Positions 37,763-64,000 of a DNA stretch of 64,000 nucleotides are shown here, piece after piece. A program made the translations under genes and the position numbers. Every line of letters starts with the position of its first letter. Position 1 is the stretch's first letter. The stretch comes from Rhizophagus irregularis (lineage: Eukaryota; Glomeromycota; Glomeromycetes; Glomerales; Glomeraceae): assembly GCF_026210795.1 (NCBI RefSeq), contig NC_089437.1:4154001-4218000 (forward strand), given 5' to 3'. Under the pieces are notes generated by a model. That model saw only the letters and a program-made list of their open reading frames with translations. It did not search any database and had not been told where the DNA came from.

Positions 37763-40572
37763 CGTCAATTTCGTCAATTTGTTAAAACTTCAAAAACGAA
37801 AAAAAAAAAAGAAGAAAAAAAAAAACGGTAATACCTTATGATATTGTACATATATATAAATAAGTTACTAATTTGATATAATCTAAAATTCCAAGATTCC
37901 AAATATTTGTGTCATTACATCATATTTTGTTTTTCAACAAATATTAATTTTAGTAAAAAATCGTGAGAATCGCGAATAAACATGGATAATAAAGATCCTT
38001 TCACTTATAGGATCTAAATTACAGAAGGTAAAAAAGAAAAAAATATCAAATCAAAAAAAGATTAAAGATACATTTTTTAAAAATAATAATAAAATGTGAT
38101 TAAACCGCTTAAAACTTAAAAGAATAATGATAGACATTATTAAATATAAGAAATATAATGTAGTTTTAAAGTTATATCACTGGGACATCAATTAAACTTC
38201 ATTGGTGATGTAAATAATTGATAAATTAATAAAAAAGCAAAATATATATAATAATATCAAATACGCCAAGCTTACTAGTGTACATCTAATCACTTGTTTG
38301 ATATACTGATTGATAACTTGGAGCAATATCATTGGTGAATATCACAATAATAATAATAACAATAACGCGAAAAAAAAAAATTTTTAAATTTCAGACGCGA
38401 ATTTTTCGCGATCACGTTACACGTTACCAAATCGAATACCATAACCTAAAAATATCAGAATTTATTAGGATACTTACATTTAATTTAATTAACGCTTGCT
38501 CGGTAATTAACCAAAATAATGCGATGTTTACATTTAATATAGTATAAATCATCTCCCGAAAAATAGTGTTATTTTTTTGGTTCGGAAAATCAATTCATTG
38601 ATCCAATCGATTATTAACTCCGTATTACTATATAAATCTTAGTCTAAAATTGTTTAAACTGGAAAGTTTATCTAAAATTTGACAAGTTTTCGGACGGATT
38701 TGTAACAACTTTTTTTAATGTGTCCAGTACCCCAATTATATTATAGTTACACCATTGACAAAGATCATTAATACAGTACATGGGTTATGATAACTATGAT
38801 AGCCACCAGCGATTATTTACGGATTGACAGTGCATATTGGAAAAGATCAGGATCCTTTCCACAACAAATATTTTTAAACCAGTATAATAAATAAATAAAA
38901 ATAATAATTTATATTTATATATTGTAAAAATGCGGTGACATTCTCTGTAATATGAATTCACCTTATTTATAAGATAAAAATCGTTATCATAATATGTTAT
39001 ATTACATCCATTCTCCCATTTTCGTCGTTTCATTTGCTTTCTTTTCTTTTTTTTTTAAAAAAAAAGGTCCTTCGCGGAAAGTTATTTCTCTTTTAAGAAA
39101 TTATTATCGCAATCTCTTTTCGGATCTTATTCTGAAATGATGGTAAAGAAAGTTACGAAATCTACCGTAAACGATTACTTAACAGGTTTCATTTGTAAAG
39201 TTTTTCACAAATCAATCGATTCATTTAAAAATAATGCATGAAAAGAAAATGAAGGATGAAAAAAAAGGGGTAAAAATTACAATCAAATAACTAAATGAAG
39301 AAAAATCAAATGAAAGCAAACGAAAATTTACGTCATAATCATCAACAATGCACAAAATTTTTTTTCTACTACTTCCCATTTGTAAATTTTAAACAACGCG
39401 TTTTGGTGGATATATTTTAAATAATAACTAAAAATGGTTCTCCATTTAAAGGAAATAAAATGAAAACAAAGGATTTATAAGATGATTACGTGATCTTAAT
39501 GATAGATTAAATAATGATTTATATATCTTATTTGAATCTAAAAATTTACGCGTAATCTCGGTTATAGAAGGATCTAGTTTTTTTTTTTTATACACTCCAT
39601 TCTCCATTTATTTTACTATATCTAATTGTCAAAATTTTTACTGTCGATTTTCTTAATTATCACATGAACAAACCATGTTTATGTCACGTGATAATGTACG
39701 CAAATTTTTTTTTTTGTGGCGAAATTTTCCGTATTAAGGGTCACAAAAAACCAAATGAAATTTTCGAATTTAGGAATGTTTGATTAAACATGTGATATAT
39801 CCTTGTTATCTGACACTAAGGAAACGGAATTCGGCAATTAACGTACATCTTTATTTACTATTTATTTTTAGAGTAAAACATTTTCCGCCTTCCAAGATAA
39901 ATAATAACCACTAACCATTTAAAAATGTTCATTTGGAATTCATGCGTGTGACACAGGTTTACTTTTTTACTTTTTTTTTTTTTAAAATATAATCACATAT
40001 CTAAATTTAATATAATTACTATTTTTGTTTTAATAATTAATTCTTTTTTTTATTTATGAAATTTCTTCTATATTATCACTTCATCTCGCAGTATTTTTTT
40101 CTATTCTTCACATCCCAAGAGTTTTTTTTTTTATATTACGTATTACATTATATTAATATATAAATAAAATCATATTTGTATAAATTGTATGTGAACAATC
40201 TGACTATAAATAACTTACAAATGAAGTAAAAAAAAAAAAATGTTCCATTTTTCCAAGAAAAATCACATATAAAAAAATACAGTTTTTCCATTCATTTCAT
40301 TCTTTATTTTGGAATAATCTTTTTTATTTTTTTTTTCCTAATTTCTTAATCGAAAACGTAAACGGAAACAAGTATTATATTAAAATTCTTGGCTATAAAA
40401 AAAAAAGCTGTTTGAAAAATATAAATATATATAATTGATTTATTAATCCCTTTTTTTTTCACGGCTTAAAAAAAACCTCTTAAAAAAAAAAAAAATCTAA
40501 ATTTTTTTTTCTTATTATTATCATTATTTATTTATTTATTTATTTTATTACAAATAACCATTTTTTTAACAT
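37763..40572. other. Gene-free region between the F-box gene and the repeat-protein gene
   Basis: No gene seen. There are many A or T homopolymers of 8-13 bases. The last 150 bp before 40573 are dominated by T/A tracts with a TTATTTATTTATTTATTTT run (about 40525-40545), likely the promoter/leader of the next gene. Confidence 0.4.
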
Positions 40573-43948: not shown

Positions 43949-46359
43949 CTAATCAAATTCTAATTTAAAAGTAGTATGATATTCTTCGTCATTTTGTTTG
44001 TTCTTTGCCGTAGCTCTAATCTCCATTTCACCGAATCGAAGAGTATATAACACTGATCGGTTTAGACCAAGATGAGTATCTAAAACGAAAAAAAAAAATT
44101 AATTAATAAAATTAAAATTAAAAAACTTTAAAAATTTCATAAATAAATTAATTATTAGTTTACCTGGCATGTGAACACTGAAATTACCGAGTAATTCAAC
44201 ACCTGGTTCATCACAATATTTTGCGGACTTATCTCTCGATACATAAATATCCATATCCATGCTTTTTTGTTCTGATAATGTAAAAAATAGTTCATTAAAA
44301 TTAAAATAATAAAATAAAATAAATAAATAAATAAATAAATTTTCAAGCACGTACCTGGTCGTGCAACAGTAAAACTATGAGAAACTTCTTCATCGACATC
44401 AATATGCTTTCCTTTTTCTGCCAAGGTATAAAATTTATAAATTCTTCCATCTTTTCCTTTACGTTCTTTCGGATCACCAGGTTGCCAAAGAGGAGAGGTT
44501 TTTGTACCATAAGTATATTTTAATACACGTGATTTAATTATTTTAGTATTGAGACCGTAATCAACAGCTCCACGTACAATAGCAGCAATTGGTTGTTTTG
44601 GTACAGAAATATTTGGTACTCTATTTTTAAATTCTTGTTTAACTCTTGTTTGTAAATATTTTGATTCACTAAATCCTCCAACTAAAAACATTGCAGAACA
44701 TTTATCACTGGTAGAATTAAGTTGGTCTTTTATCAGAGTTATAATCTTGTTTACTACAGGATCAAACATTTCTTTAACATCCTTGTAATTTAATTCAATA
44801 GACCAATCAATATCTTCTAATTTATCTTTAAGTGAATCTGAAACATATTGTTTTATAGCTGGACATACGTCTTCTAAATCAAAATCATATGTTCTAAAAC
44901 TTGATTTTTCTCCATTAAATAACAATTTAACATGTCTACAAAATTCTTGTATCATATATTGAAATTGATTATAATGCTTCTTTCTTAATAGTTCTATTGC
45001 ATTTGCTCCTACTTTTGTTGCAAGGAATTTTATAAATTCTTGATCTACATATGCTCCTCCACAGAATCCTCCTGTACGTTCTGTAGTTTCTCCTAATTTA
45101 TTCGTACTAACTACTTTACGTCTTGTTAAATCCACCGTTCCGCCACCACAATCCACAATTAAGAACGATGCTATTTAAAAAAAAAAAGAAAAAAAGAGTG
45201 ATTAAATAATTATTCTAAAATAATGAATTTTTTTTCTTTTGTTTTTGAAAATAATCCATACTTCCTACAGGATTGTCGAAATGTTCAGATAAAGTTCTCA
45301 TACAATAAATCGCAGCAGCTTCGGCTAAATAAAAAAAAATTCGGTTTAAAAGGTTATTAAACTAAACCAGTCGAATTAACTAGTCGAATTTAGATTATTT
45401 TAACTTACGTTCGGTAGTGAACTGTAGACGATCAGTGTGAAGTTCATTAATTAATCCTGCATTATATGTACATTCTCTCATAATACTTTTGGATTTCTCT
45501 GAAAATTCCGCAGGGACCGTAATAATAATTTTAGCTTGTGTCATAAAATTAACACCCGGCCATCTTGTTGTAACTGTTTCTTTTATAAGCTGTAATTATT
45601 TTAAGGAAAAAATTAAATATGTTGTGAATTTTGAAGTAAATTTTAAATAATTCAAATTCTTTACCTTGCCTATATGTTTACATAAGAGAGATATATATTA
45701 ATATTATATTAATTTTTAAATAATTCTTAAAAATAAAATTCTTAAAAACGTTTAAAACGGTTAAATTTAACTTACCCATTTCACGAAGATAATCACTGAT
45801 GGCCTTTTTATAACTCAAACTAGGAGGTAAAATAGGTTTTTTTTCTTCGGGTATATCACCTAAATGTAATTTGAATAATTCTATAGGTTTAGGTGGATTA
45901 CTAGTACGATCCTTTTTTCTTTGACGTTTTGCCAATGCTGGACTTCCCCATGCATCAATTTGAAGAAAATCTTCATCATATTGTAATACTGTATTAGTTT
46001 TTAATACACCAATATGTTCTGGCCATGTATCATTTGTTATAATTTCAGGATTAGCTCTATTAGCATATGCAAATCCCTATAAAAAAATTTTTCGAATTGT
46101 TAGGAGTTATATATAATATAGATAATCGGAAATGAAATATTCTATAAAGATGATTTCTTCTTACTGAATATGTTGTTCCAAAATCTTTTTTTTGATAATT
46201 TTCATTTTTATAATTTTTTTTTAAAAAAGAAAAAAAAATAAAAGATTAATTGTTAAAAAAAAAATTTGTTTAATATATGTATAAAAATAATATACGACAT
46301 TTAATTATCAATCATTATGTACCTATACCAACGACCACACGAGTATCGTCATAAGCCAT
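43949..46359 (-). CDS. HSPA12-like Hsp70-family ATPase, nine exons, intact
   Basis: Exons on minus: 46323-46359, 46165-46184, 45776-46076, 45665-45669 (5 nt), 45409-45589, 45262-45324, 44355-45170, 44164-44271 and 43949-44079. All have GT donors and AG acceptors, and the sum is 1662 nt, 553 residues. Hsp70 nucleotide-binding landmarks are GIGDFGTTYSGFAYA (phosphate 1 loop, residues about 11-25), LIVDCGGGTVDLT (phosphate 2), AMFLVGGFSESKYLQ (adenosine loop) and PKQPIAAIVRGAVDYGL (connect 2). The C-terminal part is short and lacks the usual Hsp70 peptide-binding domain and EEVD end, as in HSPA12-type proteins. Compared with the plus-strand array it has two extra introns in the C-terminal part. 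A short hydrophobic open frame at 44099-44350 is intron read-through. It probably acts in the cytosol; clients unknown. Confidence 0.9.
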
Positions 46360-46829
46360 GTTTTAACTTATAATTTAAGGGAAAAAAATAAAGTTTTTTC
46401 TAGAATCGGATCTGAAATGGAAAAAATTTTTTTTTTAAAAAAAAAAAAGAAAAAAGAAAAGAAGAACCGAAACAATTAAATTTATGCAGATGTTCTATAT
46501 AAATAAATTTATTGAAAGTCCATGTACTTGTATTTCATTTTCATAGTTGCTATTTTTGTAAATAATAAACTGTACTGCTGTACGCCAAAGATTGAAACAA
46601 ACGTCGATCGTCGAATTTCTTTTTTTTGACCGCATCGGAGCAAATGAATTCATTCTCCGGAAAGAATGTTACCTATCACACCGGCGTGAAATTCAACGGG
46701 ATTGTGCTACGGTTTATCACTAAATAATTGAAAAACAGAATGCTTTTTTTAGGCACATTAATTTCTTTTGTGAACTATAAATAGGAAGGCTGATGCTAAT
46801 AACAAACCACAAATATTTTTTAAAAAAAT
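46360..46829. promoter_or_regulatory. Shared 470-bp region between two divergent Hsp70-like genes
   Basis: The start codons at 46359 (minus) and 46830 (plus) face away from each other with only this region between. It holds TATAAATAGGAAG at 46776-46788 for the plus gene and the block TTCTCCGGAAAGAATGTT near 46653. A clear TATA for the minus gene is not seen; long A/T runs lie at 46430-46450. Confidence 0.6.
46776..46788 (+). promoter_or_regulatory. TATA element TATAAATAGGAAG
   Basis: It lies 41 bp before the start codon at 46830. The same 13 bases recur upstream of other array copies at 51421, 56828, 59757 and 63192, and as TATAAATAGGGTG at 54321. Conservation beyond the TATA core suggests the element includes the start-site context. 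Confidence 0.75.
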
Positions 46830-48976
46830 ATGGACATTCGTGTAGTGGTTGCTATAGGTAAGAAATTTTATAAGTTTTTTTTAAATATAATAAATATAAT
46901 GAAATATAATGATACTAACAAATAAATGAACCGTTCATTTTAACAATCAGACTTTGGAACCACATTTTCGGTAAGATTGTCATAATAATCCGAGTTAATA
47001 GAGTTAATTTTATAAATAATTTTATTTCAAAAATATTATTAGGGTTTCGCATATGCTAATCGATCAAGTCCCGAAATTATTACAAATGATACATGGCCTC
47101 AACAAATTGGTCCATTGAAAACTAATACAGTTCTTCAATATGATTCCAATTGTCAAAACGTTATTAAATGGGGAAATCCCGCTTTGGCACAAAGGCAATC
47201 TCGTAGAAGAAGTAAAGATTCATCATCTTCAAAAACTGTGGAACTTTTTAAACTTCATTTAGGAAATATTCCACAAAATGAAAAACCTCCACTTCCTAGT
47301 CAATTAAATTATGAAAAAGCAATAAGTGATTATTTACGCGAATTAGGTAAACAAGTTAAACTTACAAATTACGTAAATAATAATTTTTGATTCTTACTTG
47401 TAGTATGATAAAACATTTATTATGTAGGAAAGGTATATATATAAATTTTTTTTTTTAAAAAGAAAATTCAAAATAGTTAGATATTTATAATTTTATTTTA
47501 ACAGTTGATTAAGGAAACTATTTCTACTCGATGGCAAGGGATAAAATTCTTTAAACATGTTCTTCTTGTTATAAGTATTCCAGCGGAGTTCGATGATCAT
47601 GCGAAAGATACTATGAGAAAATGTCTTTATAATGCTGGATTGACGGACTGTAAAGAATCAAAGAAAGTTGAATTTACAACTGAACGTAAGTCAACGATAA
47701 AATTCTATTTTTTTAAAAAAAAGGTATTCACCATTTTTATCTAATATTATACTCATAATATTTAGCTGAAGCTGCTGCAATTTATTGCATGCGAAATCTT
47801 GAAGAACAGAATAAAAAGATCCCAATTAATGGTTAGTACTTTCTTTTTAGCATTTAATGTGAAAGAAAAATACTCTTGTTGACATTATATAATTAATCTT
47901 TAGCGTCATTTATGGTTGTTGATTGTGGAGGTGGAACTGTAGATCTTACAACACGTAAATTATTGAGAGATAACAAACTTAGTGAAATTACTGAACGAAC
48001 TGGGGATTTTTGTGGTGGAGCTTATGTCGACAGAGAATTTATTAAATTTCTTAGACGTAAACTTGGTGAATCGACTATAAATCTGCTTAAAGAAAATAAT
48101 TATGGTCAAATGCAATACATGATACAACAATTTTGTCAAAAATCGAAATTTCATTTTACTGGAAATATAAATGATTTTAATTCTTATGAATTTGATATTG
48201 AAGAAAATTGTCCCATTTTGAAACAATATTGTAATGATGAAATTAAAGAAAAAATGGAAGATGATGATTGGATTATTGACATAAATTTTGAAGATATAAA
48301 ATCTATGTTTGATCCAGTTATTGGAAAAATTATTAGATTAATTCGTGGGCAACTTAATTCTAGTAAGAATAAATGTTCTGCTATATTCCTTGTCGGAGGA
48401 TTTAGTGAATCAAAATATTTACAAATGAGAGTTAAAGAAGAATTCGGAAAATTAGTTCCATTAATTATTGTCCCAAAGCAACCTATTTCAGCTATTGTTC
48501 GCGGAGCTTGTGACTATGGACTCGAAATGAGTACGATAGTGGATCGTACTTTGAAATATACTTATGGAATTAAAACTCATAGAGAATGGGAATTAGGAGA
48601 TCCAATAAATCGATTGGAAAATGTTAAAGGGGAAGATAATCCTCTGATTGAGATATTTGACCCTATGGTTACACGAGGTACAAATGTAGAAGTTAATCAG
48701 GAATTTTCTGAAACTTATATACCTTTTAAGCCAAATCAAAATGGGCTTACATTTCGAATATATATTACAACTAAATTAAGTGCTAAATTTTGTGATGAAC
48801 CTGGTGTGAAATTACTTGGTACATTAAGAATAGACTTACCAGATGCTCATCTCGGAAAAAGTCGTGAGGTCGAATGTTCGCTAATTTTTGGAAAAATGGA
48901 ACTTGTTGTTAAGGCAAAAAATTTACTGAATGGAAAAATCTATAATACTTGTTTTGATTTAGATTTTAAAAATTAA
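46830..48976 (+). CDS. HSPA12-like Hsp70-family ATPase, array copy 1, intact
   Basis: Exons: 46830-46857, 46951-46970, 47043-47346, 47428-47432 (5 nt, GAAAG), 47505-47685, 47766-47831, 47904-48976. The sum is 1677 nt, 558 residues. It opens MDIRVVVAIGDFGTTFSGFAYANR (phosphate 1 loop at residues about 9-16). MVVDCGGGTVDLT at about 206-218 is the phosphate 2 loop, AIFLVGGFSESKYLQ at about 361-375 the adenosine loop, and PKQPISAIVRGACDYGL follows. The last third has no intron. Residues about 420-485 differ strongly from the other array copies; before and after this window they are nearly the same. The C-terminus is KIYNTCFDLDFKN. It probably arose with its neighbours by tandem duplication and shares their promoter block. 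Confidence 0.9.
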
Positions 48977-49502
48977 TGTAGATTTGTTAGTATCACAACT
49001 GTCTAACATTATATACTAGTGTTAAGACTCCTTTGGATAATTTATTGTAACAAACACTAACCGCGATGTTCTTTCATTTAATACCCGGACGAAAAATATT
49101 GGTCCGTTAATGTATAATTAGATTTTGTAATAAATTGCGTGTTAATATTTATAAGTGAGAATAAAAATTTAAAAATTGAAATTGGAAATTAGCTCCATCA
49201 ATTATATCGCGATAAAGCACTTATGGAGTATACTTATGAAACTATGTAAAATAAGATCACAACTGCGCAAGTTATACATGGTAGAAAAGTATAAGTTGAC
49301 AAGACTCGTCTTTCTTGTATATATCGATCGATATATCGTAAAACATTGAGTTGTGTACAATTTCCGTACATTTACTTCACATTTTTTTTATTATCTATCT
49401 ATCTATCGCGTGAAAACAAATTAACGCAAGCAATTGTGAAGGTTTAACATTTACTAATAATTTCTACTGTGAAAATCATTTTCGTACATACATCGTTGCA
49501 CA
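48977..49502. other. Spacer between array copies
   Basis: No gene. Contains TATCTATCTATC at about 49394-49406 and an ATATCGATCGATATATCG palindrome near 49320. Confidence 0.4.
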
Positions 49503-50436
49503 TCAATAAGTGAATATTTACGTGAATTAGGTAAAACAAATTAAATTTTACGAATTACATGTATGTAATTAAATTCTTTTTTCGTAATAAAATAGATTTA
49601 GGAAAAGAAAAATCAATTATTTCTTTTTAAAATTTTTCCAAGCAGATTTTCTTAAATAGCTGATCAAGCATTTATTTCATTTATTTATTATATTATTCAT
49701 GTGAAATCTTAAAGGACAGAATGAAATGATCTCAATTAAAAATAATGGTTAACATTATCTTTTATTATTAGCGTCATTTATGATTGTTGGTTGTGGAGGT
49801 GGAACAGACCTTGATTATTATATCAAAATAACAAACTGGGATTTTTGTAGTAGATATTATGTCGACAGAGAATTTCTTAAATTCCCTGTTTTAAAACAAT
49901 ATTGCAAAGATGATATTAAAAAAAGGCATTAATTGTGAAGATTTAAAATTTATTTTTAACCAGCCAACCCTTTATTGGAAAGATTATTTAATTCTAGTTG
50001 CCCCCATGTTCCTTATAGAAGGATTTAGTTATACAAATGAGAGTTAAAGGAGGATTCAGAAAATTGGTTTCATCGATTATTACGCCAAAGCAACCTATCA
50101 GCTATTGTCCGTGGAACTTGTGGCTATGAACTTAAAATGAGCACAATAGTAGATCGTACTTATACTTACGGGGTAGAATTTGGAAGGAAGGAATGGAATT
50201 TTCTAAAACTTATACATCAGTTACCACTAATCTTTCATTCGTGATATTTTAACCAACTGAATTAAGTGCCGAATTCTGTAATGAACCCGGTATGAAATTA
50301 CATTAACCAATAACCATAGATTCATCTCGAGAAAGATCGTGAAGTTGAATTTTCGCTAACTTTTGGAATAATGGAACTTGTTGATGGAAGAATATATAAT
50401 ATATATAATACTTCTTTTGATTTAGATTTAAACTAA
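49503..50436 (+). pseudogene. Hsp70-like array relic A, heavily deleted
   Basis: It begins in the end of exon 3 (ATAAGTGAATATTTACGTGAATTAG) and keeps pieces of exon 6 (about 49695-49745). Exon 7 follows from 49773, starting SFMIVGCGGGT, where the normal VDCGGG has become VGCGGG. Large parts of the ATPase core are missing, with many stops and frame changes. It ends NTSFDLDLN-stop at 50436. Exons 1, 2 and most of 3 are absent. Confidence 0.85.
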
Positions 50437-51519
50437 TAATTCTTAATTTAGTAGTCATAATATATATGCTTACGTTACTTCTGGTTATATTGTTTTTCGC
50501 GCGAAACAATATTTCATTTGCTTTTCGATTTCAATATTAGAAATCATTTTAATACATATTTTAGTATATTTAATAGGCTTAATTAAGTGAAACTTTGCGA
50601 TGCAACTATTACAATTAAGAAAAAAAAATGAAAATTACACCGCCGGTGTCCGGTAGGTAAGGTAGGATGCCTAGTTAAATAATGGAGAAATTACTTTCAG
50701 TGTTTGCATTGATGTAATTAGTTTGTATTTCATGTAAACTATGTTAATAATAAAGATTTGCAATCAATACGCACGAATTTAATGAAAAGAAAGTAAAGAA
50801 AGTCTACCATTACTATTTTCTGTCGCATCGGAACAAATAAATTTATTTTGCAATATTCTTTCGGATATAGTAGTTGCGATAATGTAAGAAAGTTTAAGAA
50901 CCTATTATTAAATTGTATTGTAATATTATTTTAACCGTTTTATCTGTTATTTTTATAACAGATATTTTATTTATTTTATTTTATTACTAAAAGAGTAGTA
51001 GAACCCAGACTATTACAAATAAAAGAAGAAAGAATTTCAAAGAAAAAACTTAAACCCAATATATTTTTATAACAGATATTAAAATATTATGGAACAAAGA
51101 ATTGAGCGCAGAATTCATCACGTGATCATCGATTTTCATTAACTCTTTCGCTCCGGACAATAACAATCACTTGCTACAAACCATAAACTTATAAGATGCT
51201 CATAATCGTAATTTGAATTTTTTTGTCAAAAAATGTATAATCTAGTTCCAAATTGGATTTTTAAAAATTTTATTACAATTTGGCAAGAGATATTAATGCA
51301 ATATCTTCACGTGTCGCCGAAAATTCTCCCACTTCAGATCCAAAGTATATTTTATAATTTGATGCAACCAAATTCTTGTCTATCATTACTAAAATGGTGG
51401 AACACAAACAATTATTTAGTTATAAATAGGAAGCTTTTGGTTTTTAGTAGAATATTTTTAATGCAAACTGGTTAAAAAGTTTGTCAACAAACCAAAAAAT
51501 TTTTTTTTTTATGAAAAAT
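50437..51519. other. Spacer and promoter of array copy 2
   Basis: No gene. A CATCGGAACAAATAAATTTATT block near 50826 followed by a TTCTTTCGG stretch is the relic of the array promoter module. TATAAATAGGAAG lies at 51421-51433, ahead of the start codon at 51520. An open frame at 51233-51475 has no protein-like pattern. Confidence 0.5.
51421..51433 (+). promoter_or_regulatory. TATA element TATAAATAGGAAG
   Basis: Same 13-bp element as at 46776; 86 bp before the start codon at 51520. Confidence 0.75.
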
Positions 51520-53644
51520 ATGGATATTCGTGCAGTAGTTGCAATAGGCAGGAAAATTATAAATAACCTTTTACTAATATTTAAAATTGTAAAAATACTA
51601 AACAATAAACTAACTATTTATTTTACAAACAGATTTTGGTACTACATTTTCGGTAAAAATAATCATAATACATAGTTAATAGAATTAATTTTATTAATTT
51701 TATAAATAATTAATTTTATTGCAAAAACGATCAATTATTAGGGTTTCGCATATGCTTATCGATCAAGTCCCGAAATTATTACGAATGATTCTTGGCCTCA
51801 ACAGATTGGTCCATTGAAAACTAATACGGTTCTTCAATATGATTCCAATTATCAAAATGTTACTAAATGGGGAAATCCTGCTTTGGCACAAAGACAATCT
51901 CGTAGAAATGGAGACTCATCATCTTCAAAAACTGTGGAACTTTTTAAACTTCATTTAGGAAATATTCCACAAAATGAAAAACCTCCACTTCCTCGTCAAT
52001 TAAGTTATGATAAAGCAATAAGTGATTATTTACGCGAATTAGGTAAAACAAATTAACCTTACAAATTATGTAATTAATTCTTACTTGTAGTAATGATAAA
52101 ACTTATTTATTATGTAGGAAAGGTACGCATAAAAATTAATTTATCTTTTTATAAAAAAAAAAATAGTTAGATCTTTCTCATTTTATTTAACAGTTGATCA
52201 AGGAAACCATTTCTACTCGATGGCAAGGGATAAAATTCTTTGAACATGTTCTTCTTGTTATAAGCATTCCAGCGGAGTTCGATGATCGTGCGAAAGATAC
52301 TATGAGAAAATGTCTTTATAATGCTGGACTGACGAACAGTAAAGAATCAAATAAAGTTGAATTTACAACTGAACGTAAGTCAAAGATAAAATTCTATTTT
52401 TTTTTTCATACCATTTTTATCTAATATATTACTTTTAATATTTAGCTGAAGCTGCTGCAATTTATTGTATGCGAAATCTTGAAGGACAGAATAAACCGAT
52501 CTCAATTAATGGTTAGTACTTGGTTTTAACATTTAATGCGAAATTTGTTGACATTATCTATTTATCTATAGAGTCATTTATGGTGGTTGATTGTGGAGGT
52601 GGAACTGTAGATCTTACAACACGTAAATTATTACGAGATAACAAACTTAGTGAAATTACTGAACGAACTGGAGGTTTTTGCGGTGGATTTTATGTCGACA
52701 GAGAATTTATTAAATTTCTTAGTCGTAGACTTGGTCAATCGACCATAAATCTGCTTAAAGAAAATAATTATGGTCAAATGCAATACATGATACAACAATT
52801 CTGTCAAAAATCGAAATTTCATTTTACTGGAAATATAAATGATTTTAATTCTTTTGAATTTGATATTGAAGAAATTTGTCCCATTTTAAAACAGTATTGT
52901 AAAGATGATATTAAAGAAAAAATGGAAGACAATGATTGGATTATTGATATAAATTTTGAAGATATAAAATCTATGTTTGATCCAGTTGTTGGAAAGATTA
53001 TTAGATTAATTCGTGGACAACTTAATTCTAGTAAGAATAAATGTTCTGTTATATTCCTCGTCGGAGGATTTAGTGAATCAAAATATTTACAAATGAGAAT
53101 TAAAGAAGAATTCGGAAAATTAGTTCCATCAATTATTGTACCAAAGCAACCCATCACAGCTATTGTTCGTGGAGCTTGTGACTATGGACTCGAAATGAGC
53201 ACAATAATAGATCGTACTTTGAAATATTCTTATGGATTTGAAACTTATAGAAGTTGGAAATTTGGAGATCCAATAAATCGAAGAAAAAGTATTAAAGGGA
53301 ATAATAAAACTAAAATTATGATATTTCACTGTTTAGCTACACGAGGTACAACAGTTGGAATTGATGAGGAATTTCGCACAGTTAGTTGTCCTTCTATGCC
53401 AGATCAAACTGAAATTTCATATCCGATATATATAACAACTGAATCAAGTGCTAAATTTTGTGATGAATCTGGTATGAAATTACATGGTACATTAACCATA
53501 GACTTACCAGATGTTCATCTTGGATTAGATCGCCAAGTTGAATTTTCGCTAATTTTTGGAAAAATGGAACTTGTTGCTAAAGCAAAAAATTTACGAAATG
53601 GAAGAATATATAACACTTCTTTTGATCTAAATTTAAACTTTTAA
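51520..53644 (+). CDS. HSPA12-like Hsp70-family ATPase, array copy 2, intact frame, GC-AG first intron
   Basis: Exons: 51520-51547, 51633-51652, 51742-52042, 52118-52122 (5 nt), 52194-52374, 52446-52511, 52572-53644. The sum is 1674 nt, 557 residues. An in-frame ATG at 51511 would add three residues (MKN). The first intron begins GCAGG where every sister copy has GTAAG, so it is a GC-AG intron or a damaged donor. Landmarks: DFGTTFSGFAYAYRSS, MVVDCGGGTVDLT, VIFLVGGFSESKYLQ and PKQPITAIVRGACDYGL. The C-terminal window reads YRSWKFGDPINRRKSIKGNN and differs from copies 1 and 3. The C-terminus is RIYNTSFDLNLNF. No stop or frameshift was found, so if the GC donor works the gene is active. Confidence 0.85.
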
Positions 53645-54409
53645 TTTGTAATTTAGTCGTAATATACATGTTTACGTTACTTCTGGTTATATTGTTTTTC
53701 AGTGTGTGTTTGCATTGACGTAATTAGTTTCAATTTTTTCTTTCTTTTTTTCTTGATTTTGTTCTTTATATTATTTTTGCTTTTAAAATTAAATATAATA
53801 AGAAAAGGTTGATCGTATTTGTATTGCATGTAAACTATGTAACTGGTAAAGTAATAATAAATACTAAATTTTACCATTATTATTTTCTGTCGAATCGGAA
53901 CAAATAAACCTATTTCGCAATATTCTTTCAAATATTAGTTGCGATATAAGAGAGTTTTAATAACCTTTTATTAAATGTATTAATTAATTTTAATATTACT
54001 AATAATAATTTAGCATTATTTTATTAAAATTATTTAAAATCTTGTGGGACAAGAAACAAAATTGATTAATCCGCCATATCACTAACTATGTAACGTTAAG
54101 CGCTGAATTTCATGATGAAATCACCATAAGCTTATTTGAATTTTTGCCAAAAAATATTTATAGAATAAAAAATCTATAATACTAGTAATACTAGATTTTA
54201 AAACACATGTCGCTCCCACTTCGTGTATAGTGAACAATCAACATTCTTTGTATATCATTACTATTTTCTTAATTATATCGCCATCGGAATAATAACTAAA
54301 AATGGTAGAAAATATTTAATTATAAATAGGGTGCTTTGTTTTTGATAGAATATTAAACCGGTTAAAAAGTTTGTCAACAAACCATAATAAATTTTTTTCT
54401 AAAAAAAAT
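53645..54409. other. Spacer and promoter of relic B
   Basis: No gene. The module TCGGAACAAATAAACCTATTT lies near 53895, and TATAAATAGGGTG at 54321-54333. Confidence 0.5.
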
Positions 54410-55256
54410 ATGGATATTCGTGCAGTAGTTGCGATAGGTAAGAAAATTATAAATAACCTTTTATTAAATAAATAAAACTGTAAAAATACTAACAATAAAC
54501 CAACTATTTATCTTTACAAATAGATTTTGGTACCACATTTTCGGTAAGTTAATCATAAAAATCCGGTTTCAATTTTATAAATAACTAATTTTTATTGCGA
54601 AAATAATAGGGATTCAATTGCATATTCTAATCGAGCAGATCCTGAAATTATGTTTGGCCTCAACAAATTGGTGTATTGACAACTAATACAGTTCTTCAAT
54701 ATGATTACAACTATCAGAATGTTATTAAATGGGGAAATCCTGCTTTGGCCCAAAGACAATCCGTAAAAGTAAAGATTCATCATCTTCAAAAACTGTGGAA
54801 CTTATTAAACTTCATTTAGGAAATATTCCATAAAATGAAAAACCTCCACTTCCTCGTTAATTAAGTTATGAAAAAGCAATAAGTGATTATTTACGCGAAT
54901 TAGGTAAAACAAATTAAACTTATAAATTACGTAATTAATAATTTTGATTCTTATTTGTAACATGATAAACCATTTATTATGTACTGTAGGAATGTAGGAA
55001 AGGTATGTACATTAATTTTTTTTTTTAAAAAAAAATTCAAAATAGTTAGGTATTTATAATTTATTTTAATAGTTGGTTAAGGAAACTATTTCTACTCGAT
55101 GGCAAGGGATAAAATTCTTTGAGCATGTTCTTCTTGTTATAAGCATTCCAGCAAAGTTTGATGATCGTGCAAAAGATACTATGAGAAAATGTTTTCATAA
55201 TGCTGGACTGACGAACAGTAAAGAATCAAATAAGTGGGAAAAGAGGAAGTAGGATA
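54410..55256 (+). pseudogene. Hsp70-like array relic B, 5' half only
   Basis: Exon 1 (54410-54437) and exon 2 (about 54525-54544) are intact with good splice sites. Exon 3 (about 54609-54906) has small deletions and stops, for example NIP-stop where the others have NIPQNEKPP. The 5-nt exon GAAAG is at 54998-55002, with a duplicated GTAGGAATGTAG before it. Exon 5 (about 55074-55240) ends abruptly after SKESNK at a junction with unrelated DNA. Exons 6 and 7 are missing. Confidence 0.85.
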
Positions 55257-55554
55257 CCTAATTAAGTGTTTGCATTTGGTATGATTTGATTATTTTTTTT
55301 TTCTTGTTTTTTGTTCCTCTTGTTCTTCTTTTACTTTTATTTTAATTAAATATTAATAAAAAAGATGCTTGGTAAAATTTTTGTATTTGTATTGCATGTT
55401 AGCCATGTAACTGATAAATAAAATGAAAAATACTTCAATTAATTTACGTTTTTTTTTTTTAATATTATTTAATTTTACTAATTTCGCATAATAACAATCA
55501 ATACGCACGAATTTAATAGAAATAACGCCGTTCTAAAATATACGATTTTAAATA
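55257..55554. other. Spacer
   Basis: No gene seen; T-rich tracts, e.g. around 55285-55340 and 55450. Confidence 0.4.
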
Positions 55555-56362
55555 CAAAGCTTTTTGGAAGATTTATCAACTTCAAAATCTGTAGAACTTT
55601 TAAACTTCATTTAGAAATTCCTCAAAATGAAAAACCTCCACTTCCTTATCAGTTAAGTTATGAAAAGACAATAAGTGATTATTTACGCGAATTAGGCAAA
55701 TGAATTAAAATTTACAAATTACGTAAAAGATTTTCTTATTTTATGATACAATTGTTTATTTATGAATTTAGCTAGGAAAGGTAAAAATTACGCCGTAAAA
55801 TTTATTTTTTCCTAAATTTTTCAAATATGTTTAACATGTTTTAATTTTATCTTAATAGTTGATTAAGGAAACTATTTCTATGGGATAAAATTCTTTGAAT
55901 ATGTTCTTCTCGTCATAAGCGTTCCGGCAGAGTTCGAAAGATATTATGAGAAAATGTCTTTTAATGCTGGATTGACGGACAGTAAAGAATCGAAGAAAGT
56001 TGAATTTACAACTGAGCGTAAATCAAAGATAAAATTCTATTATTTTTTTCCATCTTATCTAATATATTACTTATAATACTTAGCCGAAGCCGCTGCAGTT
56101 TATTGCATGCGAAACCTTAAAAACCTTAAAGGACAAAATGAAATTATCCCAGTTAATGGTTAGTTCTTTAATATCTAATGCGAAGAAAGACACTTTGTTG
56201 AATTATCTATTTATCTTTAGCGCCATTTATGATTGTTGATTGTAGAGGTGGAACTGTAGACCTTACGACACGTAGATTATTACGAAATAAAAAAGTTAAA
56301 GTTAGTGGAATCACTGAACTGAAAATTTTTGTGATGGATCTTATGTCGATAGAGAGTTAAAA
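55555..56362 (+). pseudogene. Hsp70-like array relic C, exon 3 end to exon 7 start
   Basis: It starts inside exon 3 at text matching the KDLLTSKSVELFKLHLG region of copy 3. It then has the 5-nt exon (55776-55780), exon 5 with an internal deletion of the TRWQG segment, exon 6 (about 56085-56160, lengthened by a repeated NLK) and the first about 120 bp of exon 7 (MIVDCRGGTVDLTTR; one Gly of the phosphate loop replaced by Arg). It ends at about 56362. It is closest to array copy 3. Confidence 0.85.
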
Positions 56363-56909
56363 AGAATTATGTTAAAAAATACAAAAATCATGAAAATCAT
56401 GAAAAATTATAATAAAAAACGACTTTCACCACGTGCTCAACGCATAGTGTGCGTTTTCTCAAAAACTATGGTCATTATACTAATTAAAATTGCTCCCCTC
56501 GAAAATGATTAATTATTTTTTATATTGCAAATAATGTTAAAATAAAAAAAAAATTGAAAAACTTATAAGAATATATGCTGCAGTATCAAATACTGCGAAG
56601 TGGAATATAATTATTATATTAATAGAATCAGCTTAGCTAATCTACTAATAATATAGAATAAAAAAATCAAAAATAAATAAATAATGGTTCCAGTGTTCCA
56701 CATGGAACCGATCTAACTAAAAATTTCATGATGTTGTTGCATTATCGTCACGTGTCGCACGAAAATACAAATATTATTCCACATCGAACAAATCGGGATG
56801 AATAGACCTTTTCTCCGGAAACACTGTTATAAATAGGAAGCTTTTTGAATATTTCTGATGTAAACAGGTTTGTTAACAAACCGCAGTAAAATTTTTTGAA
56901 AAAAAAAAA
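56363..56909. other. Spacer and promoter of array copy 3
   Basis: No gene. TTCTCCGGAAACACTG at 56811-56826 sits directly before TATAAATAGGAAG at 56828-56840, ahead of the start codon at 56910. Confidence 0.5.
56828..56840 (+). promoter_or_regulatory. TATA element TATAAATAGGAAG with TCTCCGGAAA just upstream
   Basis: Same element as at 46776; 69 bp before the start codon at 56910. Confidence 0.75.
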
Positions 56910-59042
56910 ATGGATATTCGTGCAGTAGTTGCAATAGGTAAAAAAGTTATATATAAATAACCTTTTATCAAAATATATAAAATTGTAAAAATCCTAACAA
57001 TAAATTAACCGTTTATCTTTACAAATAGATTTTGGCACCACATTTTCGGTAAGTTAATCATAAAAATCCGGTTTCAATTTTATAAATAACTGATTTTTGT
57101 TGCGAAAATAATAACGATTGTTAGGGATTCGCATATGCTAATCGAGCAGATCCTGAAATTATTACAAATGATGTTTGGCCTCAACAAATTGGTTCATTGA
57201 AAACTAATACAGTTCTTCAATATGATTCTAATTACCAAAATGTTATTAAATGGGGAAATCCTGCTTTGGCCCAAAGACAATCTCGTAAAAGTAAAGATTT
57301 ATTAACTTCAAAATCTGTAGAACTTTTTAAACTTCATTTAGGAAATATTCCTCAAAATGAAAAACCTCCGCTTCCTCATCAATTAAATTATGAAAAAGCA
57401 ATAGGCGATTATTTACGCGAATTAGGTAAAACAAATTAAATTTACAAATTATGTAATTAAATGCCATTTTTAATTCTTACTTAAAAATTATTATTTATTA
57501 TATTAGGAAAGGTATATATGTAAATAAATAATAAACAAACAGATAAGATAATTCAGAATAATTAACTTTTTAATTTTATTTAAATAGTTGATTAAGGAAA
57601 CTATTTCTACTCGATGGCATGGAATAATATTCTTTAAACATGTTCTTCTTGTTATAAGTATTCCGGCAGAGTTCGATGATCGTGCAAAAGATACTATGAG
57701 ACAATGCCTTTATGATGCTGGATTGACAGATAGTAAAGAATCAAATAAAGTTGAATTTACATCTGAACGTAAGTCAAGGATATAATTATTTTTTTTTTAA
57801 GGACATTCACACTATTTTTATCTAATAATTAGTACTTTAACACTTAGCTGAAGCTGCTGCAATTTATTGCATGCGAAACCTTAAAGGCCAGAATGGAATG
57901 ATCCCAATTAATGGTTAGCACTTATTTAACACTTAATGTGAAAGAAAGTTAGTACTTTTATTGACATTATCTATTTACATTTAGCGTCATTTATGGTTGT
58001 TGATTGTGGAGGTGGAACTGTAGACCTTACAACACGTAGATTATTACGAGATAACAAACTTAGTGAAATTACTGAACGAACTGGAGATTTTTGTGGTGGA
58101 TCTTATGTCGACAGAGAATTCCTTAAATTCCTTGGTCGTAAACTTAGTGAATCGACTATAAATCTGTTTAGAGAAAATAATTATGGTCAAATGCAATACA
58201 TGATACAGCAATTCTGCCAAAAAGTGAAATTTCATTTTACCGGAAATAGAAATGATTTTAATGCTTTTGAATTTGATATTGAAGAAATTTGTCCCATTTT
58301 AAAACAATATTGCAAAGATGAAATTAAAGAAAAAATGGAAGATAATGATTGGATTATTGACATAAATTTCGAAGATTTAAAATCTATGTTTGATCCAGTT
58401 GTTGGAAAGATTATTAGATTAATTCGTGGGCAACTTAATTCTAGTAAAGATAGATGTTCTGCTATATTCCTTGTTGGAGGATTTAGTGAGTCAAAATATT
58501 TACAAATAAGAGTTAAAGAAGAATTCGGAAAATTGGTTCCATCAATTATTGTGCCAAAACAACCTATCGCAGCTATTGTCCGTGGAGCTTGTGACTATGG
58601 ACTCACAACGAGTACAATAGTGGATCGTACTTTGAAATATACTTACGGGATTCGAATAGGTAGAATTTGGAAAGAAGGGGATCCGCCAAGTCAAAAAATG
58701 CCAGATCTTTATGATCACACTTTTACATTTGATAGATTAGTTATGCGTGGTACAAGAGTAGGAGTTAATCAGGAATTTTCCAAGACTTATACACCTTCTA
58801 AGCCGGATTACACTGGTCTTTCATTCAAAATATATAAAACAACTGAATTAAGTGCTGAATTTTGTAATGAACCTGGAATGAAATTACATGGTACATTAAA
58901 CATAGACTTACCAGATGTTCATCTCGGAGAAGATCGCGAAGTTGAATTTTCGTTAATTTTTGGAAAAATGGAACTTGTTGCTAAAGCAAAAAATTTACGA
59001 AATGGAAGCATATATAACACTTCTTTTGATTTAGATTTATAA
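56910..59042 (+). CDS. HSPA12-like Hsp70-family ATPase, array copy 3, intact
   Basis: Exons: 56910-56937, 57029-57048, 57125-57425, 57507-57511 (5 nt), 57588-57768, 57848-57913, 57985-59042. The sum is 1659 nt, 552 residues. Landmarks: DFGTTFSGFAYANRAD, MVVDCGGGTVDLT, AIFLVGGFSESKYLQ and PKQPIAAIVRGACDYGL. The variable C-terminal window (RIGRIWKEGDPPSQKMPDLY) is five to six residues shorter than in copies 1 and 2. After it the sequences agree again (TTELSAEFCNEPGMKLHG, LIFGKMELVAKAKNLRNG). The C-terminus is SIYNTSFDLDL. All splice sites are canonical. Confidence 0.9.
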
Positions 59043-59859
59043 TTCATTGTAAGGTAGGTTATATTTTATGCAATATTTCAACATTCGCTTTTCAATTTCA
59101 ATATTGTGATTATTAAATAGGCCACAAAGATAAACTACAAATAGTATTCATTTTAATATATATTAAGTGAAACTTTTTTTTGCAAAAAAGCAATAATGAC
59201 AATTGCACTGGTGGACATTTGGTGTAATTAGTAATTAGTTTTATTTTTTATTTCTTGTTTTTTTTTATTATATTCTTTTATTATAAACAATAAAAAAATT
59301 GGCAAAATTTTTGTATTTGTATTGTATGTAAACTATGTAACTGATAAAATAAAATACGTATTTTTTTAATAATAATATACTAAATTTCCGATGCTGATTT
59401 GGTATAATAGCTATATTCTGCTGCACCGGAATGAATAAACCCTCTTCCGGAAAATGTACTCATCAGTTTATCAATTGAAGTGCTTGGATTAAATCGTAAT
59501 TTGAATTTTCGCAAAAAATTTTACAGAATAGAAAAATTTATATTAATGTAGGATTTATTTATACAATTTTATCATAGAATATTATTGCAGAATCTTCGCA
59601 TGTCGTACAAAAATAAAACATTTGAATATTATATTCCACATCAGAACAAATTAATTTTTTCTTCGAAAAATGTAATACTGTCATTACTATTTTTCTTTAA
59701 TATTATTATGTCGTATCGGACTAAAAATCCTTTCTCCGGGAAAATACTAAATTGGCTATAAATAGGAAGCTTGGTGGAATATTTTGGTGTACCGGTTAAA
59801 TAGTTTTATCGCTTTAATAATAAACAGCAGTATTTAAATTTTTTTTTTTAAAAAAAAAA
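59043..59859. other. Spacer with two promoter-module copies
   Basis: No gene. CACCGGAATGAATAAACCCTC followed by TTCCGGAAAATGTAC lies at 59425-59458. A second weaker copy is at about 59638-59670, and a third, TCGGACTAAAAATCCTTTCTC, ends CCGGGAAAATACTAAA near 59751. TATAAATAGGAAG follows at 59757-59769. The stacking suggests duplicated or lost gene starts. Confidence 0.55.
59757..59769 (+). promoter_or_regulatory. TATA element TATAAATAGGAAG
   Basis: Same element as at 46776; belongs to the broken copy starting at 59860. Confidence 0.65.
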
Positions 59860-62045
59860 ATGAATATTCGCGTAGTAGTTGCAATAGGTAAAAAAGTTAT
59901 AAATAAACTTTTAAAATTGTAACAATACTAAAAATAAGTTAATCGTTTATTTTTTACAATTAAACTTTGAAACTGCTAGTTAATCATAATAATCCGAGTC
60001 TAAAAAATTTAATTTTATGAATAATTAAATTGTTATGAAAATAATAATGTCAGGGATTCGCATATTCTAATCGAAATAATCCCGAAATTATTACAAATGT
60101 TGTTTGTAGTGCTTCGATCCGGATGGGATCGATCCGCGGTTTACTACGGGTTGGCATCGGTTTATTTGAATTGGAGCTATAAGTTTGGCCAAAATTAATA
60201 AAATTTGTGGAAGAATAATTTTTTTAAATCCGACAAAAATTATAGTTTGACAAAAATAATAGAAAAATGTTGTGATGCTAATCAACGGATCAATCCGGAT
60301 CGAAGCACTAGATGTTTGACCTCAACTAATTGGTTCATTGAAAACTAATACAGTTATTTAATGGGGAAATCCTGCATTAGCCAAAGGCAAGTAAAGATTC
60401 ATCATCAAAATCTGTAGAACGTTTTAAACTTCATTTAGGAAACATTTCTCGAACTGAAAATCATCGTAATCAAATGCAATTTCTGAATTCTAAGTATTAT
60501 AAATCTTGGTAAGGTAATAATAAAATGTCCTGTAAAAGTTAATTCTTTTTTTCTTTAAAAAAAATGATAATAATTGTAATCCTTTAATGTAGTGGAATTC
60601 TTATAAAAAAATTTTCCAATTTTTTCAAAAATGGCTCAGTATTCTGTAAACAAACTTTCTCTATTGCTAGTTCAACTATTTCCAAGGTATGAAATCGTTT
60701 AAATTCAGAAACAGTTTATGCTTTATTATGCTTAAAAATCTGAATTACTAAAAAAATTGGCAAAGATAATAATAAGAATGAGAAAAAATCATATAAAATT
60801 TTTTATTTAAATAGTTAATTAAGAAAACGGTTACTACTCGTTGGCATGGTATAAGATTCTTTGAACATGTTCTTCTCGTTATAAGCGTTGAATCAAATAA
60901 AATTGATTTACAACTGAAACGTAAGTAAATGATAAAATTCTCTCTTTTTTATAAACGTATTATTCAATCTAATTGATAATTTATGTATTACTTTAGCTGA
61001 AGCTGCTGCAATTTATTGCATGCAGAACCCAAATGAACATAATAATGGAATTATTCCGATAAATGGTTGGTATTTGTTTTTGAGTAGCGTCATTTATGGT
61101 GGTAGATTGTGGAGGTGGAACCGTTGACCTTACAGCACGTAAGATAACAAGCTTAGTGAGATTACTGAACGAACTGGAGATTTTTGTGGTGGATATGTTG
61201 ACCAAGAATTTCTTAAATTCCTTAATCTTTAGTCGTATACTTGATGAATCAACTATAAATCTGCTTAGAGAAAATAATTATGGTCAAATGCAATACATGA
61301 TACAGCAATTCTGTCAAAGAGTGAAATTTGAAATATAAATGATTCTGATTGATATTGAAGAAATTTGTCCTGTTTTAAAACAGTATTGTAAAGATGATAT
61401 TAAAGAAAAAATGATTGTATTATTGACAAATTTTGAAAATCTAAAATTTATGTTTGATCTAGTTGTTGGAAAGATTATTAGATTAATTCGTGGACAACTT
61501 AATTCTAGTAAGGATAAATGTTCTGCTATATTCCTTGTCGGAGGATTTGGTGAACCAAAATATTTACAAATGAAAGAATTCGGAAAATTAGTTCCAGCAA
61601 TTATTGTGCCAAAGCAACCTATCGCAGCTATTGTTCGTGGAGCTTGTGACTACGGACTTAAAATGAGCACAATAGCGGATCGTACTCTGAAATATACTTA
61701 CGGTATTAAAGCTAATAGACACTGGAGTTATCCAATAGATCGAAAAATAACCTGTGGGAATGGTGATCAAAATTGAGGTATTTTGATAGCCTAGGTACAA
61801 AAGTAGGAGTAGATCAGAAATTTTCTAGGATTTATCATCCTCCTGAACCAAATGTCACTTTTCTTACGATTCATATTTTTAAAACAACTGAATTGAGTGC
61901 TAAATTTTGTGATGAACCTGGCATGAAATTACTTGGTGTATTAATCGTAGATTTACCAGATGTAAATCTCGGATTTAAGTCGTAGAATTGAATTTTCGTT
62001 AATGTTTGGAAAAATGGAAATTGTCGCTAGCAATAGTTTGAATTA
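59860..62045 (+). pseudogene. Hsp70-like array relic D, nearly full length but decayed, carries a MITE
   Basis: Exon 1 starts at 59860 (MNIRVVVAIG). Exon 2 has lost most of GTTFS. Exon 3 is split by the MITE at 60107-60310 and shortened. The 5-nt exon cannot be found. Exon 5 is shortened, exon 6 (about 60998-61065) is recognisable, and exon 7 runs from about 61088 with deletions and frame changes. It still has VVDCGGGTVDLT, AIFLVGGFGEPKYLQ and PKQPIAAIVRGACDYGL. The 3' end keeps TTELSAKFCDEPGMKLLG. Confidence 0.85.
60107..60310. mobile_element. 204-bp hAT MITE, same ends as hAT 3
   Basis: The ends TAGTGCTTCGATCCGGAT and ATCCGGATCGAAGCACTA are perfect inverted repeats and differ from the hAT 3 ends (22354, 25812) at one base in the first 15. 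The flanks GTTGTTTG and GATGTTTG agree at 7 of 8 positions; the sister genes read GATGTTTG here, so that is the original target. The interior carries no gene. Confidence 0.9.
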
Positions 62046-63236
62046 GATTATTAGCTAGATTAAATAATGTAGACCTTTCATTATTTATTACAAATAGAGT
62101 CAAATTTTAAAAGTTTCGCAAGAAATAAAATATAAATGCTATTATTAAGTAAAATAGTTTTTAAAATAATGTCGTTGTTGCATATCGAAAAATTAATATT
62201 ATGTCAACAACGATAGTTCCCAAATTTATTTATCCACTTTTAAAACATAGTATAATGATATAGATTCTTGATAAAAATATGGTTGACACGCTTTATATTG
62301 GAATAGCATTTATTAGTTTAATTCATGATTTCCCTATATAATAATATTCTGGTAATTTAAACCAATTTGTTTAGGGCAACTATAATATTCGAGATAAAAC
62401 AGTTGGTGTGTTACACCAGAACCTTTTTTTTTCAGGAAAAGTTGTATTTACAAATCACAACTGCCGTTTTTTTTGTTTTAGATAGGCGAATATTAAAAGT
62501 TTATTTTATTAGATACTAATATTTTACATTTTGCAATAATGCTACATTATATTGTAACCATACTGGTCTTTAAGAAAAAAGAGTATGGTAGTATGAAATA
62601 GTTATTAAAAAGTTCAAATTCACCATTAGCTTTTCGCTTGTAAGATATACGGGCGTTTACTATTTGATGAGTACTAAGTATTCGGCACAAGTGATTCGTG
62701 ACTGCGGCACTATGATTGTGCCTCACATTAAATAGTTATTTTTTATTAAGAAAGGGTAAAAAAAGTTATTTTTTATTAAAAAAAAAAATGTACGTGGTTT
62801 TACCAAATTTTAGAAATCGCACCGAATTGACCGAAACGAATAAACCTTTTATTCCGGAAAATGTACTAAAAATGTTTTGACACAGACATATATACAGTTA
62901 TCGTTCAGCCCAATAGGATCATGCATATTTTCATAGACCGATATTTTTATTAGCCATAGCAATAACGCATGATTGATATAATAAAGTGGAGTAAAAAAAT
63001 GGCGTAAATGAATATTTTGTAGGAAAAGTTTAAATAAAGCTTATAAAGTGGATTAAAAATGATTAATTAATGCATGATCAAAAACGTCATAACGATCACA
63101 CTTATTTGATGTGGGGCTATATCGGTCACAGGGACCTTCATTGATTGGTGAAAATGGCCACTACGTACTCCCCCATCCAATAATATGTATTTATAAATAG
63201 GAAGCATTGATTTTTATTAAAACCGATTAAGAAGTT
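62046..63236. other. Spacer with relic promoter modules
   Basis: No gene. ACGAATAAACCTTTTATTCCGGAAAATGTAC at 62837-62865 is a well preserved promoter module without a gene after it. TATAAATAGGAAG lies at 63192-63204. Possible duplicated AAAGTTATTTTTTATTAAAA phrases lie at about 62735-62785. Confidence 0.5.
63192..63204 (+). promoter_or_regulatory. TATA element TATAAATAGGAAG
   Basis: Same element as at 46776; precedes the deleted copy at 63237-63560. Confidence 0.6.
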
Positions 63237-63560
63237 TCTCTGAACAACAAGCCGCAGTATTCTTTCCGCGCAGTAGTTGTAATAACCTTTTATTAAAATA
63301 TCATTGTAATAATGCGAACAATCCGTTTATTTATAATAGGTTCTTTTAGTCGTGAAACAAGATGGTGAAAATTTTCAGAAATCATCACATGTCTAACAGT
63401 ACTGAATTTTATGATGAACCTGTTATGATATCACTTGGTACATTAACTATAGACTTACCAAATGCTCATCTTGGATTAAATCGTGATGTTGAATTTTCGC
63501 TAAATTAAACGAATAGAAAGAATATATGATACTGGTTTTGAATTAGATTTTAAGATTCAC
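63237..63560 (+). pseudogene. Hsp70-like array relic E, leader joined to 3' end
   Basis: Leader text and a damaged exon 1 (GCGCAGTAGTTGTAATAACC) are followed within about 120 bp by the last 170 bp of exon 7 (STEFYDEPVMISLGTLTIDLP, then AHLGLNRDVEFS). About 1.8 kb of the gene is deleted. Confidence 0.8.
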
Positions 63561-63751
63561 GAGAATTTATCATTTATAATTTAGCTATAGAAATGTTATT
63601 GCAATATCGTCACGTATCCGGAATAAACTTAAAAATGTATGTTAATTTATGGATAGTTTGACGTAGTAACAATCAATCATTATGTACTAAAAATGGTTGA
63701 GAGTATATAATTATAATATTTTTTCATCAGTATTCAAATTTTTTTAAAAAA

Positions 63752-64000
63752 ATGGATATTCGTGCAGTAGTTGCAATAGGTAAGAATTACAAATAACCTT
63801 TTGTTAAAATGTTAAAATATATAAATACTAACAATGAATTAACCGTTTATTTTACAAATAGATTTTGGTACCACATTTTTCGGTAAGTTAATCATAAATA
63901 ATTAATTTTTATTGCGAAAATAATAGGGATTCGCATATGCTAATCGAGCAGATCCTGAAATTATTACAAATGATGTTTTGCCTGTGCAATAAAAACTAAT
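63752..64000 (+). pseudogene. Hsp70-like array relic F, 5' end, runs off the window
   Basis: Exon 1 (63752-63779) is intact. Exon 2 (about 63862-63882) has one extra T compared with its sisters, which shifts the frame. Exon 3 starts normally (GFAYANRADPEIITNDV), then a 10-20 bp deletion gives LPVQ-stop. The remainder lies beyond the window. Confidence 0.75.

Follow-up and report, generated by a model that had tools for sequence, protein, structure and literature searches.

The window analysed here is a 64,000-nucleotide stretch of Rhizophagus irregularis DNA (GCF_026210795.1, contig NC_089437.1, positions 4,154,001 to 4,218,000 of the forward strand), with a G+C content of 28.6%. From position 43949 to the window end it contains a cluster of Hsp70-like genes, consisting of gene M on the minus strand and an array of genes A, B and C on the plus strand. 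The cluster also contains five relics or fragments and one copy truncated by the window end. The four genes were modelled as follows.

43949-46359, minus strand: gene M, 9 coding exons, 553 aa; exons 1-5 at 46323-46359, 46165-46184, 45776-46076, 45665-45669 and 45409-45589, exons 6-9 at 45262-45324, 44355-45170, 44164-44271 and 43949-44079
46830-48976, plus strand: gene A, 7 coding exons, 558 aa; exons at 46830-46857, 46951-46970, 47043-47346, 47428-47432, 47505-47685, 47766-47831 and 47904-48976
51520-53644, plus strand: gene B, 7 coding exons, 557 aa; exons at 51520-51547, 51633-51652, 51742-52042, 52118-52122, 52194-52374, 52446-52511 and 52572-53644
56910-59042, plus strand: gene C, 7 coding exons, 552 aa; exons at 56910-56937, 57029-57048, 57125-57425, 57507-57511, 57588-57768, 57848-57913 and 57985-59042

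Residue identity was 54-57% between M and the array genes and 81-83% among A, B and C. Six introns are common to all four genes, with the same positions and phases. Gene M has two extra introns near its 3' end (44080-44163 and 44272-44354) that are missing from A, B and C; one explanation is a 3'-biased loss from the array through a reverse-transcribed copy, and another is a gain in M. Six plus-strand copies of the element TATAAATAGG lie shortly upstream of array genes or relics (46776, 51421, 54321, 56828, 59757 and 63192), with 0 copies on the minus strand, and the element is likely a core promoter common to them. The beginning of the truncated Hsp70-like copy lies at 63752-64000. Elsewhere in the window, no relative of the cluster genes was found at an E-value of 1e-3, and a search of Rfam at gathering scores gave no match. 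Pfam matches were obtained for 4 of 10 other ORFs (14636-15316, minus strand; 32099-32488, plus; 37358-37789, minus; 433-1581, plus), the families matched being BED zinc finger, Tc3-type transposase helix-turn-helix, F-box and DUF5906.

The initial annotation had described an exon of only five bases in each of the four genes. In 4/4 genes these bases were found as described, preceded by AG and followed by GT in gene orientation. With them, the frames are clean and of the claimed 552-558 residues (M 553, A 558, B 557, C 552), each with one terminal stop; when they were left out the frame broke, again as claimed, with a stop at codon 119-133. The exons, identified by sequence, frame and splice enumeration, and their flanking introns are located as follows.

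45665-45669, minus strand: 5-nt microexon of gene M, GCAAG, exon 4 of 9
47428-47432, plus strand: 5-nt microexon of gene A, GAAAG, exon 4 of 7
52118-52122, plus strand: 5-nt microexon of gene B, GAAAG, exon 4 of 7
57507-57511, plus strand: 5-nt microexon of gene C, GAAAG, exon 4 of 7
45670-45775, minus strand: intron 3 of M, upstream of the microexon, 106 nt
45590-45664, minus strand: intron 4 of M, downstream of the microexon, 75 nt
47347-47427, plus strand: intron 3 of A, 81 nt
47433-47504, plus strand: intron 4 of A, 72 nt
52043-52117, plus strand: intron 3 of B, 75 nt
52123-52193, plus strand: intron 4 of B, 71 nt
57426-57506, plus strand: intron 3 of C, 81 nt
57512-57587, plus strand: intron 4 of C, 76 nt

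A Gly codon is split between exon 3, which contributes its first base, and the microexon, which contributes the other two and continues with a Lys codon (GAA-ATG-GGC-AAG-CTT in M; GAA-TTA-GGA-AAG-TTG in A, B and C). Across this site the translation is ...YLRE(L/M)-Gly-Lys-LIKET.... Internal exons no longer than about 15-30 nt that are bordered by canonical AG and GT count as microexons, and the exon has this form at 5 nt in all four genes; its necessity for the frame and its conservation among homologues were likewise found across the four genes of this one cluster. A further microexon, exon 2, measures 20 nt in 4/4 genes (M 46165-46184, minus strand; A 46951-46970, B 51633-51652 and C 57029-57048, plus strand).

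Splice sites were scored with matrices derived from 18 introns of these four genes, introns 3 and 4 being left out of the training, and the scores are thus not independent of the family. The microexon donors scored 5.8-9.7 and the acceptors 4.9-5.8, each within the top three of its kind in its region in every gene. In M, A and C, other AGs scored higher than the microexon acceptor (6.2, 6.4 and 6.7, respectively), and low scores of 2.3-4.1 were obtained for the exon 5 acceptor in 4/4 genes. These ranks bear on the possibility that the microexon is a regulatory switch, sometimes skipped, with the resulting frameshift turning the gene off. Five is not a multiple of three, so that skipping would indeed be destructive, and a fungal precedent is described for the 20-nt microexon of the Trichoderma transcription factor Xlr2 (PMC11121469). 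Against it stand the high ranks of the microexon splice sites; in the course of the other analyses no sign of regulation was noticed in the sequence, and we consider a switch of this kind improbable.

Other ways of splicing the region were enumerated in two forms: single GT-AG introns of at least 40 nt, whose donor could lie anywhere from 30 nt before the exon 3 end onwards and whose acceptor could lie up to 30 nt inside exon 5, and microexons of 1-40 nt between unchanged outer splice sites, the whole frame having to remain open. In-frame microexon solutions numbered 1 in M, 1 in A, 3 in B and 2 in C, and in-frame single-intron solutions numbered 10 in M, 4 in A and 0 in both B and C. Within these limits, the 5-nt exon was the sole splice solution common to the four genes. 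One larger intron in place of the microexon was rejected, as B and C have no such solution and none is common to the four genes. The other microexons (23 and 32 nt in B, 8 nt in C) were rejected as well, none being common to the genes. The solutions in A and M would permit isoforms in which the microexon is optional and a downstream donor yields an in-frame protein with a few extra residues; in gene A, the in-frame donor at +26 scored 7.6, compared with 5.8 for the microexon donor and 8.3 for the exon 3 donor. The lack of any counterpart in B or C speaks against such isoforms. Furthermore, the only combination that A and M share is a donor at +26 joined to the exon 5 acceptor, the M donor there scored -0.5, and the extra residues would fall in the middle of a predicted helix (see below). 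Isoforms of this type therefore appear very unlikely.

To estimate how often such an exon arises by chance, introns were shuffled 3000 times per gene. Some in-frame 5-base exon appeared in 4-13% of the trials, and one giving Gly-Lys in 0.2-0.4%. Because in-frame 5-base exons are this frequent in shuffled introns, a single gene is weak evidence, and the weight of the evidence lies in the conservation between M and the array. Between these, the microexon differs by one silent change only (GGC/GGA, Gly), at a dS of 1.3-1.5 and a dN/dS of 0.26-0.28. In introns 3-4 of M and A, 87/149 aligned bases were identical (58%), slightly above the shuffled level of 53% (sd 3%, 30 shuffles of the M introns). 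The exon, its AG and its GT thus persist between M and the array in a near-saturated background. A chance origin was rejected on the shuffles for the single genes and on the M-array conservation for the set.

The four genes had also been called intact in the initial annotation. Their open frames bear this out, whereas the first intron of gene B (51548-51632, 85 nt) starts with GCAGGA instead of GT, as the sole non-GT donor, and retention of its 85 nt would shift the frame. Gene B would rely on a weak GC donor at this intron. The lowest of the 18 donor scores was 2.4, followed by 6.8, and the lowest is very probably that of gene B intron 1. The view that the array is pseudogenic and the apparent exon a meaningless pattern in decaying genes could draw on this GC donor and on the number of relics, fragments and truncated copies in the cluster (five and one, respectively), but four open frames of about 1.66 kb and dN/dS values of 0.26-0.28 (M vs array) and 0.37-0.49 (within the array) make it extremely unlikely.

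Two of the relics had been said to carry the exon, which was found in both. The four relics that still span the site are the following.

49500-50430, plus strand: relic copy without AG-GAAAG-GT
54410-55240, plus strand: relic copy with the microexon, GAAAG between AG and GT at 54998-55002
55599-56371, plus strand: second relic copy with the microexon, GAAAG between AG and GT at 55776-55780
59860-62031, plus strand: relic copy without AG-GAAAG-GT

The microexon is thus retained in 2/4 of these relics and gone near 49.6 kb and 60.7 kb. The string AGGNAAGGTA occurs in 7 copies in the window, compared with a mean of 0.25 in 100 shuffles. Six of the seven copies are the microexon sites of the four genes and the two relics, and the seventh (50655) lies outside the gene models.

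In bacteria, 29 loci were found; one of them, the intronless L019, was used in the spacing test, 11 served as rows of the fold alignment, and 17 were left unused. L019, from Methylococcaceae, matched with an E-value of 3e-44 (calculated against the candidate stretches only), and its protein covers most of the length at 25-30% identity. The distance from DYLR to the IPA anchor ((V/I)PA) is 32 residues in L019, as in 4/4 fungal proteins, and the alignment has no gap at the microexon. Eight Streptomyces plasmid matches were found and six were compared, several of them near-identical and one (L033) truncated at the end of the fetched stretch. These six also have two residues at the Gly-Lys columns; they weigh less than L019 because a 3-residue gap is needed downstream. 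Phage records gave three distant matches, two of them annotated as DnaK, which were left out of the comparisons. In viral contigs, no relative was confirmed by protein or alignment search, and the DNA pattern of the exon 3 border had no match; these searches yielded no further homologue from a fungus. A search for relatives of the Methylococcaceae protein P0001 in 398 genomes of its phylum (E 1e-20) returned only P0001 itself. As had been claimed, the 5-nt exon appears to have been kept since before the split of M and the array, in view of its being the only splice solution in common, the silent change and the gapless fit to an intronless relative.

The predicted model of P0001, used solely to place the helix, had a mean pLDDT of 62, with values of 84-92 around the stretch equivalent to the microexon. 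Residues 131-132, the equivalents of Gly-Lys, lie inside a predicted helix (119-142). A fold search with this model listed 50 matches, which were DnaK and other Hsp70 structures, several of them as complexes. By homology, the Gly-Lys residues encoded at the microexon would lie inside a helix of the ATPase domain.

The membership of the family was examined in M and A, which were the proteins covered by the Pfam scan. Both matched HSP70 (PF00012) above the cut-off of 20.6, M with 42.4 bits and A with 29.9 bits, and for MreB_Mbl, which has a related fold, the scores were 32.5 (M) and 26.1 (A) at a cut-off of 27. The profile match ended at 360 (M) and 353 (A) of 599, and the substrate-binding domain of Hsp70 was not found in it. 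The predicted model of gene A exon 7 had a mean pLDDT of 51, with values of < 50 over most of the C-terminus. The C-terminal EEVD is the canonical ending of cytosolic Hsp70, and the four proteins lack it, ending in LEFD, DFKN, NLNF and DLDL. The cluster had been described as HSPA12-like. This holds loosely, in that the proteins are very divergent Hsp70s, as vertebrate HSPA12A and HSPA12B are described to be (PMC2266713). In HSPA12, however, an 86-aa insert is described in place of residues 168-192 of HSPA1A (PMC2266713), and we judged it absent here from that description: the spacing from (V/I)PA to DCGGGT is 63-64 residues in the fungal proteins, and an alignment of A with BiP showed no long insert there. 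Furthermore, the human HSPA12 genes have 12 coding exons (PMC2266713), unlike the fungal genes with 7 or 9.

The array genes differ most in a C-terminal segment encoded by exon 7. In columns 421-500 of the A/B/C alignment, pairwise differences reached 40-80% per 20-column block, compared with 3-23% in the preceding blocks and 18-22% in the following ones. In columns 425-495, pN/pS was 0.8-1.8, and the remaining blocks gave 0.2-0.7. Comparison of this segment with the remainder of the gene gave Fisher p-values of 2e-5 (AB), 0.007 (AC) and 5e-4 (BC), for borders that were picked after viewing the alignment of a gapped region. pN exceeded pS by itself for AB only (one-sided p 0.04, uncorrected; AC 0.92, BC 0.46). 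These figures point to diversification or relaxation of the array in the C-terminal segment, with constraint on the ATPase part.

Taken together, this small cluster of Hsp70-like ATPase genes has, with high probability, a real microexon of five bases that is spliced constitutively, and its inclusion is very likely obligatory. Skipping would shift the frame and end the protein after 118-132 residues, and it is for this reason that selection on the protein would retain the exon and its splice sites. The initial annotation regarded five bases as near the limit for exon definition. We rejected this limit, since 1-nt exons are spliced in plants (PMC8831610) and a 4-bp exon in human MPC1 (PMC9929638), and introns as short as those found here fit intron definition. 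According to a study of PRP-40, small exons are thought to fall below the range of exon definition, and intron definition is referred to as a default for short introns (PMC8378409). Because both flanking introns are short (71-106 nt), each is most likely recognised on its own and would be removed in a separate step. Once the first step was done, the five bases would be part of an exon of normal size, without crowding at two splice sites.

The microexon may have originated when a coding stretch resembling GGTAAG was duplicated locally and an intron was gained in this way. Translated in frame, intron 3 opens with Gly-Lys (Gly-Lys-Leu in M), and these residues are also the ones restored by the microexon and exon 5. 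Half of this match is automatic, as any phase-1 intron after G that starts with GTAA(A/G) spells Gly-Lys. An expansion of a transporter-class Hsp70 family has been reported in Glomeromycotina (PMC8778642). A tentative proposal, which we consider rather unlikely, is that a large Hsp70-like family in this fungal lineage inherited the 5-nt exon from its ancestor throughout, and that many gene models are wrong at this point. Exons this short are often overlooked by gene finders and read aligners (PMC8831610), and should the lineage have many members of this family, a large number of Hsp70-like genes would appear in annotations as broken or would have incorrect residues at this site. The cluster also offers a natural series (four open copies, two relics with the exon and two without) with which to probe the fungal spliceosome on a 5-nt exon that lies between short introns.

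In the main texts of the openly available papers searched, no report described an exon of this kind in Rhizophagus or Glomeromycotina; the one match, PMC4014442, concerns Rhizoctonia. Plants and animals are both known to have exons this tiny, and the present exon appears to be a well-supported new case of an already known phenomenon. The 4-bp exon of human MPC1 is constitutively included, its splicing persists when it is reduced to 2, 1 or 0 bp, and its two introns leave as separate lariats in two-step splicing (PMC9929638). Like it, the fungal microexon is tiny, not a multiple of three and flanked by ordinary splice sites, and it is probably also constitutively included. For this animal gene, the MPC1 authors favour strong regions of exon definition within the introns on either side (PMC9929638), whereas the introns here are short and intron definition is the probable mode. 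In plants, conserved 1-nt exons are described in APC11 and VPS55, and a 5-nt exon of rice Os08t0562700 was validated by RT-PCR (PMC8831610). The fungal exon falls in the same range of 1-5 nt, and many plant microexons are likewise conserved and overlooked by annotation; the plant cases rest on RNA-seq and RT-PCR (PMC8831610), whereas the fungal exon is known here from its sequence. Among fungi, the Xlr2 paper cites earlier microexon reports, including one in an hsp70 gene of Penicillium marneffei (PMC11121469). The Xlr2 microexon is, like the present one, a microexon of a filamentous fungus and is conserved within its group, but it acts as a glucose-dependent switch and is 20 nt long, in contrast to the 5 nt found here (PMC11121469).
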